A DNA stretch of 64,000 nt from Stenotrophomonas maltophilia. Its GTDB lineage: Bacteria; Pseudomonadota; Gammaproteobacteria; Xanthomonadales; Xanthomonadaceae. The notes under the pieces are model-generated. The model saw nothing but the letters and a program-made list of their open reading frames with translations. It was not told the origin of the DNA and did no database searches. This document shows, one piece after another, positions 12,842 to 23,369 of the stretch; within the stretch, counting starts at the first letter, position 1, and every line of letters begins with the position of its first letter. The DNA lies in NCBI RefSeq assembly GCF_003970865.1, contig NZ_RXLZ01000004.1, positions 1 through 64,000 on the forward strand, written 5' to 3'. Both the position numbers and the translations under genes were made by a program.

Positions 12842-12917
12842 GCGGGAATAGCTCAGTTGGTAGAGCGCAACCTTGCCAAGGTTGAGGTCGCGAGTTCGAG
12901 TCTCGTTTCCCGCTCCA
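12842..12917 (+). tRNA. tRNA-Gly(GCC), copy 1
   Basis: 76-nt gene with encoded CCA. The anticodon arm CAACC-TTGCCAA-GGTTG gives anticodon GCC. D-arm (GCTCAGTTGGTAGAGC) and T-arm (GAGTTCGAGTCTC) are canonical. It is the counterpart of E. coli glyW, which also follows pgsA. Identical to copies 2-4. Confidence 0.97.
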
Positions 12918-12925
12918 GATTCAAG

Positions 12926-12953
12926 AAAAACGCTCCCGCAAGGGAGCGTTTTT
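12926..12953 (+). terminator. Rho-independent terminator after tRNA-Gly copy 1
   Basis: Stem cgctccc/gggagcg flanked by A5 and T5, nine bases after the tRNA. The same hairpin with one changed base follows copy 2. Confidence 0.85.
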
Positions 12954-12979
12954 CGTTTGCGCGGCGGTGTCCGTGCAGA

Positions 12980-13540
12980 TCAATCATCATCCTGCGCCGC
13001 CGCGCGCGAACGCATGCCGGTGATGCGCGCTTCTTCGCGTGCTACCTGGCGGTCCGCAAACCACTCCTGCACATCCCCTGCGAAGCTCGCCGGGCGCCCC
13101 TTGCCCTGCACGCCCTCGGCAATCGAGGCCAGGCTGGAACGTGCCAGTTCTTCGCGCATGGCCTTCTGCGCGTTGATCATTACCGCGTGGATGCCGCACA
13201 CGCCACGGTTGGCCCATCGCGGCGGGCTGCCATCGAACAGCGCACAGCGCCCACGGATTTCCTGGCAGTCGAACAGTGCCTTCTGCCCCTCAACGGCGTC
13301 GACCACATCCAGCACGCTGATGTCTTCGGGCGCACGCGCCAACTGGTAGCCGCCACGGATACCACCAGTGGACTCAACGATGCCGGCCTTCTCCAGCTTG
13401 GGGAAGATCTTTGCCATGAAGGCCGCAGGCACGCCCTGCAGTTCGGCCAGGTCGCGGCTGCTGGGACGTTGTTCCAGCGGCGGGACCAGCCAGAGCAGGC
13501 AGTGCAGGGCGTACTCGACGCCCGTTCCGATGTGGGCCAT
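12980..13540 (-). CDS. Rrf2-family transcriptional regulator
   Basis: 186-aa regulator with the Rrf2 winged helix (MAHIGTGVEYALHCLLWL..., GVPAAFMAKIFPKLEKAGIV, GGIRGGYQLAR) and a later segment with three cysteines (C92, C99, C115). These could ligate an Fe-S cluster as in IscR/NsrR relatives, although the spacing is not the standard one. The start at 13540 is chosen at the family N-terminus. It is divergent from the NADH dehydrogenase-like gene. The 12-mer ATAACGCGGACT occurs just upstream of this gene (13560-13571) and again inside the palindrome at 13703-13743, which suggests autoregulation and control of its neighbour. Confidence 0.88.
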   Translation of the reverse strand: MAHIGTGVEYALHCLLWLVPPLEQRPSSRDLAELQGVPAAFMAKIFPKLEKAGIVESTGGIRGGYQLARAPEDISVLDVVDAVEGQKALFDCQEIRGRCALFDGSPPRWANRGVCGIHAVMINAQKAMREELARSSLASIAEGVQGKGRPASFAGDVQEWFADRQVAREEARITGMRSRAAAQDDD

Positions 13541-13702
13541 GGAACCGGTCCAGGAAAATATAACGCGGACTATAGGGGCCTGAGTTACCCGCCGCAACCC
13601 TTCGGAGCTTCATGCAGATCTTTGATTTCATTGGCGTTGTGGCTGGGGAAGGGCGTAGGGCAGGTAGGTGCTGGCCTGAACGGTGCCGCCATCAGGTGCT
13701 TG

Positions 13703-13743
13703 CACCACATAACGCGGACTCATATGATCCGTGTTATGTGGTG
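13703..13743. promoter_or_regulatory. 41-bp palindromic operator candidate
   Basis: A near-perfect inverted repeat. Outer arms CACCACATAAC / GTTATGTGGTG are exact, and inner arms CGGA / TCCG flank a CATATG centre. The left half contains ATAACGCGGACT, identical to a site beside the Rrf2 gene start. It lies about 80 bases before the oxidoreductase ATG/GTG. Operator function is inferred from symmetry and repetition. Confidence 0.65.
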
Positions 13744-13825
13744 CGTCGCTACAGCACATCACCCACGCCCGTGCCGACCGCGCATGAAGGCGCCTGAACC
13801 CCGATTCCCAGAAGGATTTCCCTCC

Positions 13826-15037
13826 GTGTCTCAACGCATTCTTGTCATCGGCGCCGGCTTTGCCGGCATGTGGAGCGCGCTCGCCGCCGCCCGTCTTCTC
13901 GACCAGGCCGCGCGCCATGATGTGGAGGTCGTGCTGGTTGCGCCGTCGCCGGAACTGCATGTGCGCCCGCGCCTCTACGAAAAGGGACCGGAGCGCATGA
14001 AGGCGCCGCTGCAGGCCATCTTCGATGCCGTGGGCGTGCGCTACCTTGCCGGCCGCGTCGAACACATCGACGTCGCCAACCAGCAGGTGCAGGTGGTGGG
14101 CACGGGTGCCGATGCCGCAGCGCAGACGCTGCACTACGACCGCCTGGTGCTGGCCGCCGGCAGTCGCCTGAACTGCCCGCCCATCCCCGGCTTGCAGCAG
14201 CACGCCTTCAACGTCGATCAGATTGCCGATGCGGCGCGCCTGCAGGCGCACGTGGAAGGTCTTGCTGATCGCCCGCACAGTGTTGCCCGCAATACGGTGG
14301 TGATTGCAGGCGCAGGTTTCACTGGCATTGAAACGGCGGCCGAAATGCCCGCGCGCCTGCGCGAGGTGCTGGGTGCCGATGCGGCCGTGAACGTCATCAT
14401 GGTCGAGCGCGCCGATGCGCTGGGCCCGGACCTGGGGGAGGGGCCGCGACCGGTCATCACCCAGGCCCTGACCGAACTAGGTGTGTCCTGGCGCCTGGGC
14501 TCGGGCGTCGCCTGCGTGGACGCCGACGGTGTCACTCTGGAGAACGGTGAACGTATCGACGCGGCCACCATTGTGTGGACGGCCGGTGCACGTGCCAGTG
14601 CGTTGACTGCTCAGATTCCCGGCCAGCACGACGCGGTGGGTCGCCTGCACGTGGACCGCACTCTCAAGGCGAAGGGTGTCGACGCGGTGTTCGCCACTGG
14701 CGACTGCGCGCATGCCGCCACCGATGACGAGGGCAACGTGGCGATGATGTCCTGCCAGCACGCGATGAACCTGGGGCGCTCCGCCGGACACAACGCCGCG
14801 GCTGACCTGATCGGGGAAGCGACGATTCCGTATGCGCAGCCCAAGTACGTGACCTGCCTGGACCTGGGGCCGTGGGGTGCTGTCTACACCGAGGGCTGGG
14901 ATCGACAGGTGGTGCTGTCCGGCGCTGAAGCCAAGGCGCTCAAGACCCGGATCAACACCGAATGGATCTACCCGCCCAGTGGTGAGCGTGCTGAGATCCT
15001 GGCGTCGGCGGATCCGCTGCGGATTGTTGTGGCCTGA
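13826..15037 (+). CDS. Type II NADH dehydrogenase-like FAD oxidoreductase
   Basis: 403-aa pyridine-nucleotide-disulphide oxidoreductase-fold flavoprotein. It has an N-terminal FAD motif (VIGAGFAGMWSALAA), a second dinucleotide motif for NAD(P)H (IAGAGFTGIETAAE), and a C-terminal FAD motif (VFATGDCAHA). This matches single-subunit Ndh/rotenone-insensitive dehydrogenases that pass electrons to quinone without proton pumping. The GTG at 13826 follows gaaggat; an upstream in-frame ATG at 13784 is the alternative. Divergence from a possibly redox-sensing Rrf2 gene and the palindrome suggest induction under redox, NO or aromatic-quinone stress (inference). Confidence 0.85.
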   Translation: MSQRILVIGAGFAGMWSALAAARLLDQAARHDVEVVLVAPSPELHVRPRLYEKGPERMKAPLQAIFDAVGVRYLAGRVEHIDVANQQVQVVGTGADAAAQTLHYDRLVLAAGSRLNCPPIPGLQQHAFNVDQIADAARLQAHVEGLADRPHSVARNTVVIAGAGFTGIETAAEMPARLREVLGADAAVNVIMVERADALGPDLGEGPRPVITQALTELGVSWRLGSGVACVDADGVTLENGERIDAATIVWTAGARASALTAQIPGQHDAVGRLHVDRTLKAKGVDAVFATGDCAHAATDDEGNVAMMSCQHAMNLGRSAGHNAAADLIGEATIPYAQPKYVTCLDLGPWGAVYTEGWDRQVVLSGAEAKALKTRINTEWIYPPSGERAEILASADPLRIVVA

Positions 15038-15174
15038 CGGCGTTGGGAACTCGAGAATGGCGCTCGCAAAGGGGGCGTCATTCTTCTGGATCATCCAGCA
15101 TCGCGCCAATCGGCTTCTGGGCATGGAGGATCCGCTGCGGGCATGGCTGACCATCAATCTCACGCCAGGCCACC

Positions 15175-22551: not shown

Positions 22552-22945
22552 CGGCGGTGTCCGTGGTGGCAGGCAGGCGGTTGTGTGATGCATACCATGC
22601 GGATGTGACGATCGCGGCCAGTGCCAGCAGGCCGGGCCCGAGGGTGAAGTACAGCAGGCGCAGCGGGTGGTTGTGCATCAGCGTCCAGCTGGCGAACGCC
22701 AAGGGGATCGCCAGCACCAACAGCTTGGCGAACAGCGGCCGCAACACCGCGATCAGCGGCTGCGCGCAGAGGAACATCCAGAACAGATAGAACTGGGCGA
22801 TGCCCAGCCCGATGTCGCGATGGGACGCGAAGCCGAAATGGTCGCGATACCAGTTCATCCCCAGCGGAATCAGTGCCCAGTACAGCAGCGCTACCAGCAG
22901 ATGAAGCGCCAGGGCGATCAACAGGGGCTTGCCGCGAAGGAACAT
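22544..22945 (-). CDS. Hypothetical membrane protein
   Basis: 133-aa protein with about four helices (about 8-28, 48-68, 70-90, 98-118). The HFGFASHRDIGLGIAQFYLFWMF part suggests a short soluble loop. First gene of the pair with 22102-22551; it begins about 130 bases from tRNA-Gly copy 3. No family recognised. Confidence 0.7.
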   Translation of the reverse strand: MFLRGKPLLIALALHLLVALLYWALIPLGMNWYRDHFGFASHRDIGLGIAQFYLFWMFLCAQPLIAVLRPLFAKLLVLAIPLAFASWTLMHNHPLRLLYFTLGPGLLALAAIVTSAWYASHNRLPATTDTADA

Positions 22946-23014
22946 GGGCGAACGGGGCTGGGCGGGGCAGCGTACCCCAGTGCGGACGCCCGTGACCGCA
23001 TGATGTGAAGACTG

Positions 23015-23043
23015 TTGACGGCGTGAAGGAATTTGGACACAAT
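23015..23043 (+). promoter_or_regulatory. Promoter of tRNA-Gly copy 3
   Basis: TTGACG (23015-23020), 17 bases, CACAAT (23038-23043), then the same agcgctccttcgacgcaggt leader as copy 2. Confidence 0.65.
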
Positions 23044-23075
23044 AGCGCTCCTTCGACGCAGGTCGAACGGAATCT

Positions 23076-23151
23076 GCGGGAATAGCTCAGTTGGTAGAGC
23101 GCAACCTTGCCAAGGTTGAGGTCGCGAGTTCGAGTCTCGTTTCCCGCTCCA
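23076..23151 (+). tRNA. tRNA-Gly(GCC), copy 3
   Basis: Identical to copies 1 and 2, with CCA. Its downstream hairpin (23158-23185) differs from theirs. Confidence 0.97.
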
Positions 23152-23157
23152 GATTCT

Positions 23158-23185
23158 ACAGGGCCCCGGTAGGGGCCTTGTTTTT
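23158..23185 (+). terminator. Hairpin/terminator after tRNA-Gly copy 3
   Basis: Stem agggcccc / ggggcctt followed by g and T5. Copy 4 begins 109 bases later, so read-through into it is possible. Confidence 0.65.
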
Positions 23186-23293
23186 CTCCCGCCACGGCAA
23201 GGCGGGGCACGTTGGGCCACAAGGCTTTACGCGCAGTCAGAAAGGTGAAATCGCTGGTGTGTGTTCCGGGTTTCCGGTACCATGGCGGCTTAT

Positions 23294-23369
23294 GCGGGAA
23301 TAGCTCAGTTGGTAGAGCGCAACCTTGCCAAGGTTGAGGTCGCGAGTTCGAGTCTCGTTTCCCGCTCCA
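23294..23369 (+). tRNA. tRNA-Gly(GCC), copy 4
   Basis: Identical 76-nt sequence. It is 142 bases after copy 3 and 66 bases before tRNA-Cys, so the last two probably share a transcript. Confidence 0.97.

Follow-up and report, generated by a model that had tools for sequence, protein, structure and literature searches.

Hybrid tRNA-Gly modules and variable cargo downstream of pgsA in Stenotrophomonas, a probable record of recombination between tRNA copies

tRNA genes are usually treated as targets of integrases. Elements of the ICEclc family integrate at the 3′ end of tRNA-Gly (PMC9960961; PMC2717098), and one study of defence islands in S. maltophilia reports tRNA genes in or beside most of the islands it covers (PMC11680222). 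Hotspots without mobility genes have been reported to diversify through homologous recombination in the core genes that flank them (PMC5635113). In SBW25, direct repeats give rise to duplications that change tRNA gene number (PMC7661048), and in mitochondrial gene order tandem duplication with random, complementary loss is described as a source of new orders (PMC5122201). A literature search, in which most papers were judged on titles and abstract openings alone, found no description there of the array considered here.

The tRNA-Gly array downstream of pgsA in Stenotrophomonas resembles these systems in part. It has in common with the ICEclc family (PMC9960961; PMC2717098) the target tRNA, the 18-bp direct repeat and the tyrosine integrase, all present at the locus in relatives, whereas the cargo of the window (the whole 64,000-nucleotide stretch of S. 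maltophilia DNA analysed here) lies between complete tRNA genes, with no element end, att repeat or integrase. As in the reported hotspots and the additive or replacement flexible islands (PMC5635113; PMC5217437; PMC4119200), a fixed site holds variable cargo, often with no integrase; here, however, the homology arms would be internal tRNA repeats, which could yield duplication, stacking and deletion besides replacement. Repeat-borne duplications alter tRNA gene number as in SBW25, but the duplications in that account (PMC7661048) are large laboratory ones for which tRNA genes figure only as possible repeats, whereas here the tRNA copies are the presumed crossover sites and the record extends across species. 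Finally, duplication and complementary loss lead to a new order, as in the mitochondrial account (PMC5122201), but in a bacterial accessory interval between tRNA modules and with no remnants seen.

The window carries two cargo intervals bounded by identical tRNA-Gly(GCC) genes, four in total. The initial annotation had discussed three of these copies; ARAGORN finds a fourth, on which the interval described there ends. The features are as follows, 'complex' denoting the S. maltophilia complex.

11962–12588, plus strand: pgsA, which anchors the array on the left and is conserved, being present in 87/87 genus genomes
12802–12829, plus strand: promoter P1 of tRNA-Gly copy 1, TTGACG-16-TAAAAT (consensus scan)
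12842–12917, plus strand: tRNA-Gly(GCC) copy 1 (ARAGORN)
12918–12959, plus strand: Ta of copy 1, a terminator-like hairpin seen in the sequence and absent from the terminator scan output
12980–13540, minus strand: interval 1, Rrf2-family regulator (Pfam PF02082), in 8/41 complex genomes
13787–15037, plus strand: interval 1, NDH-2-like Pyr_redox_2 flavoprotein (Pfam PF07992), in 8/41 complex genomes; coordinates of the open frame
15175–15750, minus strand: interval 1, orphan ORF, matched only by the window's own interval among those compared
15950–17056, plus strand: interval 1, FAD-dependent geranylgeranyl-reductase-like oxidoreductase (Pfam PF01494, FAD_binding_3), labelled fadE here
17111–17139, plus strand: promoter P2a of tRNA-Gly copy 2, of the type common to copy 3 (consensus scan and flank comparison)
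17172–17247, plus strand: tRNA-Gly(GCC) copy 2, hybrid module P2/Ta (ARAGORN and flank typing)
17248–17289, plus strand: Ta of copy 2, a terminator-like hairpin seen in the sequence and absent from the terminator scan output
17315–17662, minus strand: interval 2, p116, a small protein, in interval 2 of 23/41 complex genomes
17850–22099, plus strand: interval 2, tripartite ABC exporter (outer-membrane efflux protein, FtsX-type permease, ABC ATPase and HlyD-type membrane-fusion adaptor; Pfam), its outer-membrane gene present in 32/41 complex genomes
22102–22945, minus strand: interval 2, mem150 and mem134, two small membrane-protein ORFs (open frames), one or both in 37/41 complex genomes
23015–23043, plus strand: promoter P2b of tRNA-Gly copy 3 (consensus scan)
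23076–23151, plus strand: tRNA-Gly(GCC) copy 3 (ARAGORN)
23152–23193, plus strand: terminator Tb of copy 3, stem 23158–23181 (terminator scan)
23294–23369, plus strand: tRNA-Gly(GCC) copy 4 (ARAGORN), then terminator Tc, stem 23379–23397 (terminator scan)
23436–23509, plus strand: tRNA-Cys(GCA), closing the array on the right (ARAGORN)

Pfam agrees with the proteins named in the initial annotation, which had left out p116 and the two small membrane ORFs. The score of fadE against TIGR02032 falls under the family cut-off, and the orphan ORF has no match in Pfam, NCBIfam or PADLOC. No integrase was found among the ten of eleven cargo ORFs (all but mem134) scanned against Pfam and NCBIfam. The idea of a defence island was discarded when ten proteins compared with PADLOC gave one weak match only (HipA-like, E 7e-4).

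The four array copies are the only full-length, near-identical matches in the genome, the three further matches being 71–77% identical. Of 284 copies across 86 genomes, 281 carry an identical 76-mer; identity of the core alone may reflect purifying selection, and it is the flanks that carry the evidence. In the window they bear out the earlier description of copy 2 as a hybrid with a copy-3-type promoter and a copy-1-type terminator. Copies 1 and 2 have 118 bases (tRNA and Ta) in common at 99%, with one difference, but agree at only 57% over the 65 bases upstream; copies 2 and 3 agree at 89% over these 65 bases, but at only 63% over 46 bases of terminator. Among 2000 random window pairs, the 99.9th percentile and maximum were 83% and 89% for 65-mers and 72% and 76% for 46-mers. 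The upstream match of copies 2 and 3 thus equals the best of the random pairs, and the 57% and 63% values fall in the random range. Because the P2 match recurs in relatives, the likeness of copies 2 and 3 goes beyond chance. Within 12600–23650 there are only three sigma-70-like promoter matches, located before copies 1, 2 and 3 (shuffles: mean 1.4).

At least one tRNA-Gly lies downstream of pgsA in 86 of the 86 loci read (G023, whose pgsA contig stops within the first tRNA-Gly, was left out of the 87), and copy number ranges from 2 to 5 in the 74 genus loci with tRNA-Cys in view. The flanks of the 86 loci were typed against references, low scores being marked '?'; single-linkage typing of terminators was dropped, as it merged Ta, Tb and Tc into one. 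Three-copy relatives mostly have one P1 copy, one copy with Tb and one P3 copy, and in three-copy species the middle copy has retained the core of the P2 promoter, in many of them at a position 52 bases further upstream. Among the 41 complex genomes, 36 have a copy 2 typed P2/Ta, and no copy of this type occurs outside the complex. All four copies, with flanks typed P2, Ta and Ta, are seen in 31 complex genomes; in these the P2 and Ta flanks show no concerted evolution. Within one genome, copies 2 and 3 differ by 13% in their P2 flanks, and between genomes the same copy differs by 3–6%. Exchange must therefore be rare, and on these sequence comparisons the hybrid module of the window is old and inherited, which speaks against ongoing cassette exchange.

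Cargo is strongly variable between relatives and the genes just upstream are constant (86 of 87 genus genomes compared). In 16 named loci (L090–L105) of the 80 fetched, all seven ORFs before the first tRNA-Gly were present in 16/16 relatives and interval ORFs in 0–13 of 16; ORFs here are longest frames, some perhaps antisense, and L092 scored without interval ORFs only because an ICE displaces them past the fetched 10 kb. Different cargo thus lies between the same tRNA modules, and the tRNA flanks are related on alignment, in keeping with the initial annotation, which had named shared cargo or unrelated flanks as evidence to the contrary. The HipA-like cargo of G025, G086 and G059 was rejected as cargo shared with G050, being only 28–30% identical and in another gene order. 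The Cys-Leu stretch is also variable, though without identical tRNAs at both ends.

The distribution of three genes is partitioned. fadE occurs in 41 distinct intervals, every one of them interval 1, and 30 of these belong to the complex (30/41 genomes). p116 occupies interval 2 of 23 complex genomes, interval 1 of ten loci, all outside the complex, and also the duplicated interval 2 of G037; for mem150 the counts are 37 complex genomes (interval 2) and two three-copy loci (interval 1). Three-copy relatives with a single undivided interval bear p116-fadE-mem150: p116 lies to the left of fadE in 5/5 three-copy loci with a good match to both (L063, L065, L067, L074 and L079), L069 combines p116 with a partial fadE match, and mem150 is syntenic with an 841-aa protein both in the undivided interval of L065 and in interval 2 of L034 and L037. 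Since the order is fadE, tRNA, p116 in all 22 complex genomes with both genes, insertion of a tRNA into p116-fadE is ruled out as the origin. Genomes lacking fadE here (11/11 in the complex, and G037) have no match or distant partial matches only elsewhere, and the same holds for the exporter permease in 10/10 genomes checked that lack it here. At E 1e-3 the complex yielded no fadE outside interval 1 and no p116 or mem150 in interval 1, and no genome with both duplicated intervals intact was found. Retention of fadE on one side and p116 and mem150 on the other is complementary, and with no remnants seen the locus works like tandem duplication–random loss after an old event, rather than being a proven case of it.

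The most probable explanation is that the tRNA-Gly modules have acted as direct repeats, with an ancestral unequal crossing-over duplicating an interval, followed by complementary loss, gains, deletions, few exchanges and ICE landings. The array consists of stand-alone promoter–tRNA–terminator modules, and their identical cores (76 bases, or 118 in copies 1 and 2 when the terminator common to both is included) would serve as direct repeats for homologous recombination. Because each core sits between its own promoter and terminator, a functional tRNA gene should result from a crossover within it, and unequal crossing-over could therefore duplicate or delete the DNA between copies at little cost. 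In an ancestor of the complex, a copy with a P2 promoter would have crossed over with one bearing a Ta terminator, duplicating a p116-fadE-mem150-type interval and leaving a hybrid P2/Ta module, the present copy 2. Complementary loss would have retained fadE in interval 1 and p116 with the small membrane genes in interval 2; Rrf2/NDH-2, the exporter, the HipA-like protein and others would be later gains, and internal deletions, a few tRNA-to-tRNA exchanges and independent ICEclc-like landings on single copies would have shaped the locus further. The origin by unequal crossing-over proposed in the initial annotation thus gains support from the complementary partition. We infer RecA-type recombination as the agent, as well as the order of the steps, the neutrality of the crossover for the tRNA and the arrival route of new cargo. 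The route to the hybrid is not unique, because copy 2 has a P1-like promoter in clade B and in G079, G080, G062 and G076; an intermediate or a conversion tract may be involved. On this reading, the same tRNA copies also appear as sites of homologous recombination, with stages of duplication, stacking, decay and deletion in living species, which would provide a concrete route for the turnover of hotspots without mobility genes and tie accessory content to tRNA copy number.

Arrangements of these kinds are present in assemblies of relatives. G035 lacks interval 2 and has three full tRNA-Gly(GCC) matches only. Its copy 2 is like copy 2 of relatives upstream (81–85% in 8 of 9 compared; 47% in L023) and like their copy 3 downstream (84–91% in 9/9), a close permease copy was not found elsewhere in its genome, and the sequence fits a deletion hybrid. 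In G037, an 803-base Gly-p116-Gly unit stands in tandem with zero differences, containing p116 alone among the genes searched. The assemblies of G035 and G037 are drafts, of 50 and 60 contigs respectively, and repeats near read length can mislead assemblers. In G025, on one contig, a decayed tRNA-Gly with a P2-like leader and Ta lies inside interval 1 (88% over the module), and G032 shares this cassette, with an orphan Ta terminator after it. A hybrid repeat at the junction, the mark of unequal crossing-over, is found in copy 2 of the window, copy 2 of G035 and the fossil module of G025. Products of duplication and deletion both exist (G037 and G035) but in different species, and so do not derive from one event.

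It is rather doubtful that the locus is an integrase-free cassette platform, in which units of terminator, cargo, promoter and tRNA would be added, removed or swapped between cells through the invariant cores, like a slow integron without an integrase. Selection would keep the sites identical, surplus copies would decay after stacking and the promoter and terminator boundaries would be clean. The initial annotation had foreseen deletion or swapping of blocks through the tRNAs; the G035 deletion, the G037 tandem and the G025/G032 stacking are in agreement, but no clear tRNA-bounded tracts appeared in same-cargo pairs (153 pairs of 18 genomes regressed, four pairs profiled). In G017/G015 the excess similarity extends from pgsA across interval 1 into interval 2, and its dip falls within interval 1 rather than coinciding with a tRNA. 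Interval 1 of G079 and G080 is 93% identical, against 76% and 71% just outside the tRNAs; constrained non-coding DNA here averages 94% (219 pairs of like distance). fadE remnants remain in G009 and G061, and fadE was thus lost there by internal deletion. The hybrid and its origin by duplication are supported, but homology-driven exchange as an ongoing process at this locus is not, given these internal deletions and a hybrid that the complex has inherited.

Relative to the preferred reading of tRNA modules as repeats for homologous recombination, an integrase-driven history is improbable. It would make the tRNA-Gly 3′ ends attB sites for ICEclc-like elements whose integrases, either resident or acting in trans, remove or exchange the DNA between neighbouring tRNA copies, with the cargo as ICE residue or passenger. 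ICEclc-like elements with 18-bp att repeats do fill gaps of 96.5–103.5 kb after copy 1 (G046), copy 2 (G047) or copy 3 (G022 and G084). At 4/4 right ends read, the last 18 tRNA bases (one mismatch in one) are followed by the original terminator type, and 661-aa tyrosine integrases adjoin the tRNA in G022 and G047. The earlier statement that no integrase is visible is thus true of the window intervals and false for the locus in relatives. In G085 element-end sequence follows two tRNA copies without a large element, clc-like islands of Bordetella petrii are described as able to excise with neighbouring core DNA and tRNA-Gly (PMC2717098), and the array copies are paired 18-bp sites, so the flanks cannot separate integrase action from homologous exchange. 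However, of the 86 loci 11 have element-end sequence after a tRNA, and the window, with neither such sequence nor an 18-base att repeat in its intervals, is not among them. A partial 18-base att repeat (≤2 mismatches, both strands) was absent from 198 intervals (343 kb, 86 loci) except in the decayed G025 tRNA; since integrated elements would leave an att repeat, this counts against an integrase origin of the cargo, as does a duplicated unit in G037 with only p116.

It is also quite unlikely that this is an ordinary insertion hotspot, where each interval gains and loses genes independently, through illegitimate or IS-driven events and through homologous recombination in the core genes on either side (pgsA and those downstream), with the hybrid flank explained by a single old gene conversion and the partition by chance. 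Rrf2/NDH-2 indeed scatter like shuffled labels (eight changes against a shuffled mean of 7.6), and p116 comes close to this (12 against 13.6), counted in 41 of 42 complex genomes (G046 skipped; G035 scored absent for interval-2 traits) on a gyrB+pgsA tree with tblastn-oriented gyrB and 14 open forks of 86, in which both genes may recombine. Rrf2/NDH-2 divergence between genomes is not clearly below core expectation, so that their patchy presence may reflect loss as well as gain. The course of the G017/G015 similarity and the variability of the Cys-Leu stretch, where identical flanking tRNAs are missing, would also suit such a hotspot. It does not, however, predict the zero overlap of fadE with p116 and mem150 between the intervals of the complex, the synteny of mem150 with the 841-aa protein, or the arrangements seen in G035 (deletion), G037 (tandem unit) and G025 (fossil module).

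The window carries pgsA, four identical tRNA-Gly(GCC) genes (Gly1-Gly4) and then tRNA-Cys, and the four array copies are the only full-length, near-identical tRNA-Gly matches genome-wide. In E. coli the order is pgsA-glyW-cysT-leuZ, which suggests that the array descends from this cluster. Copies 1-3 each have one sigma-70-like promoter (the sole three matches within 11 kb); a terminator scan listed hairpins after copies 3 and 4, and the sequence itself shows one following copies 1 and 2 that is absent from that list. The tRNA and terminator are common to copies 1 and 2 (118 bases, 99%), and the upstream flanks of copies 2 and 3 agree at 89% over 65 bases. 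The initial annotation had read copy 2 as a hybrid, and correctly: the structure is real, with tRNA and terminator as in copy 1 and the upstream flank as in copy 3. Between pgsA and Gly1 (12600-12770), a gap whose length differs among relatives, lie several palindrome-like atccacgcatggcgtggat copies in both orientations, which we take to be REP-like.

pgsA was present in 87/87 genus genomes, and the locus was read in 86, window included. Among 74 loci with tRNA-Cys in view, Gly copies numbered four in 44, three in 22, two in seven and five in one. Flank typing by promoter (P1-P3) and terminator (Ta-Tc) gives two Gly copies in many basal species, and in three-copy species a middle copy with a P2-type promoter core, often with Tb. 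In the S. maltophilia complex, which comprises 42 genomes on the tree, the usual layout is P1/Ta, interval 1, P2/Ta, interval 2, P2/Tb and P3/Tc. Of 41 complex genomes, 36 have the P2/Ta copy at position 2; no locus outside the complex has it. Many Xanthomonas loci have the order Gly-Cys-Gly. Tandem tRNA-Gly genes with gaps of just 58-127 bases were seen in loci L263 and L264 (genomes G016 and G021; five and four copies). L081 (G010) has one intact tRNA-Gly, the 55-base 5' part of a second 170 bases further and then tRNA-Ala and tRNA-Glu, suggesting rearrangement between tRNA loci. L135, from a record titled Bacillus subtilis, has a Stenotrophomonas-like pgsA and tRNA-Gly locus and is probably a mislabelled or contaminated assembly.

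The gene order bears on how the hybrid arose. In five three-copy loci (L063, whose contig stops within the second tRNA, L065, L067, L074 and L079) the small-protein gene p116 lies after the first tRNA, to the left of fadE, the gene for an FAD-dependent oxidoreductase; L065 reads p116-fadE-mem150 (a small membrane ORF)-841-aa protein. In the complex, fadE is found in interval 1 only and p116 and mem150 in interval 2 only, and in interval 2 of L034 and L037 mem150 adjoins the gene for a protein related to the 841-aa one (43% identity). A new tRNA splitting one interval cannot place fadE left of p116. A crossover between a P2 copy and a Ta copy would duplicate one interval and leave a P2/Ta hybrid between both, and complementary gene loss could then yield the partition of fadE versus p116/mem150. 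The case rests on gene order and flanks because no remnants of the lost duplicate genes were found. Hybrid flanks, gene order and partition support the tandem duplication through tRNA copies proposed initially, and the comparison as a whole favours an old duplication bounded by tRNA genes, then complementary gene loss and a few later exchanges.

The homology-driven cassette exchange that was also proposed is not borne out by the comparison as a frequent process. Concerted evolution of the flanks was not found in 31 genomes: P2 of copies 2 and 3 differs by 13.4% in one and the same genome and by as much across genomes, whereas the same copy compared between genomes differs by 3.4% and 5.6%. By this measure of divergence the hybrid module is old and inherited. 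The strongest similarity outlier among the 18 genomes with a fadE-only interval 1, G017/G015, has its identity shift inside interval 1, and its closeness reaches on into pgsA as well as interval 2. A fadE remnant persists in G009 and G061, so loss there was internal.

Within the complex, fadE occupies interval 1 of 30/41 genomes, Rrf2/NDH-2 (the latter a Pyr_redox_2 flavoprotein) interval 1 of 8/41 and p116 interval 2 of 23/41; the outer-membrane gene of the tripartite ABC exporter occurs in 32/41. The fewest changes on the tree were compared with 200 shuffles.

Cargo changes on the tree
Exporter: 4 changes; shuffle mean 8.4; 0/200 shuffles as low
fadE: 7 changes; shuffle mean 9.9; 3/200 as low
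p116: 12 changes; shuffle mean 13.6; 51/200 as low
NDH-2: 8 changes; shuffle mean 7.6; 200/200 as low

The exporter therefore tracks ancestry, fadE less strongly, and NDH-2 and p116 hardly. As an upstream control, 7/7 longest-frame ORFs were kept in 16/16 named relatives. Searches elsewhere in the genome gave distant partial matches or none for fadE in 11/11 fadE-less complex genomes and G037, and likewise for the permease in 10/10 permease-less genomes checked (G013, G035, G037, G039, G040, G062, G063, G064, G069 and G084). Among the further cargo seen in relatives are a HipA-like protein, an APH-family kinase, an NMN transporter accompanied by a TonB receptor, and an aldo-keto reductase accompanied by a LysR regulator. 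The orphan ORF at 15175-15750 is absent from all other intervals compared and matches no Pfam, NCBIfam or PADLOC family.

Several arrangements were found that further exchanges may have left. G035, a genome without the permease, lacks interval 2, and its copy 2 joins a copy-2-like upstream flank to a copy-3-like downstream flank; G037 repeats exactly an 803-base tRNA-to-tRNA unit with p116. Interval 1 of G025 holds a 1.1-kb cassette and then a decayed tRNA-Gly (93%, with its anticodon broken) whose leader is P2-like and whose terminator is Ta; the same cassette is present in G032, where a Ta terminator comes next but no tRNA. G079 and G080, non-sisters on the tree, have in common an interval 1 that is 93% identical and has a P1-like promoter; outside the tRNAs, their match is 76% over the 100 bases preceding Gly1 and 71% over the 100 following Gly2. 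Across 219 pairs of like gyrB distance, the stretch before Gly1 averages 80%; since constrained stretches near Gly3 average 94% in these pairs, the case is only suggestive.

Integrative elements do enter the array in relatives. In G046 copy 1 and the next tRNA-Gly lie some 101.5 kb apart, about 99.7 kb follows copy 2 in G047, and 96.5 kb (G084) and 103.5 kb (G022) follow copy 3. All four right ends read carry the last 18 tRNA bases (one mismatch in G046) and then the terminator type expected at that copy (Ta for G046, Tb type for G047, G084 and G022); in G046 the fadE interval and exporter come after the right end. In G022 and G047 the tRNA is adjoined by a 661-aa integrase that has both an arm-binding and a catalytic domain, and the two ORFs tested at this place in G046 are IS21-like transposition genes. 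Several Xanthomonas loci have similar element ends after a tRNA-Gly, and one report describes tRNA-Gly 3' ends as sites used by ICEclc-family elements (PMC9960961). The window's locus has no element-end sequence, and the partial 18-base att repeat occurs in 0/198 intervals between successive tRNA-Gly copies (86 loci), save inside the decayed G025 tRNA. The small cargo blocks are thus not integrated elements of the ordinary kind; integrases could still act on them in trans.

L083, L087 and L260 carry, between Gly3 and Gly4, a block of NMN transporter, TonB receptor and APH-family kinase, preceded by a second type of element-end-like sequence. In L060 (G085) element-end-like sequences follow two tRNA-Gly copies, with just 2.5 and 5.8 kb carrying metabolic and regulatory genes beyond, and are possibly scars of decayed elements. 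The span from tRNA-Cys to tRNA-Leu(TAA) (23510-41207) likewise differs widely in what it contains and how long it is, although no identical tRNAs bound it; it measures ~3.7 to 17.7 kb where both are seen, with Leu on either strand.
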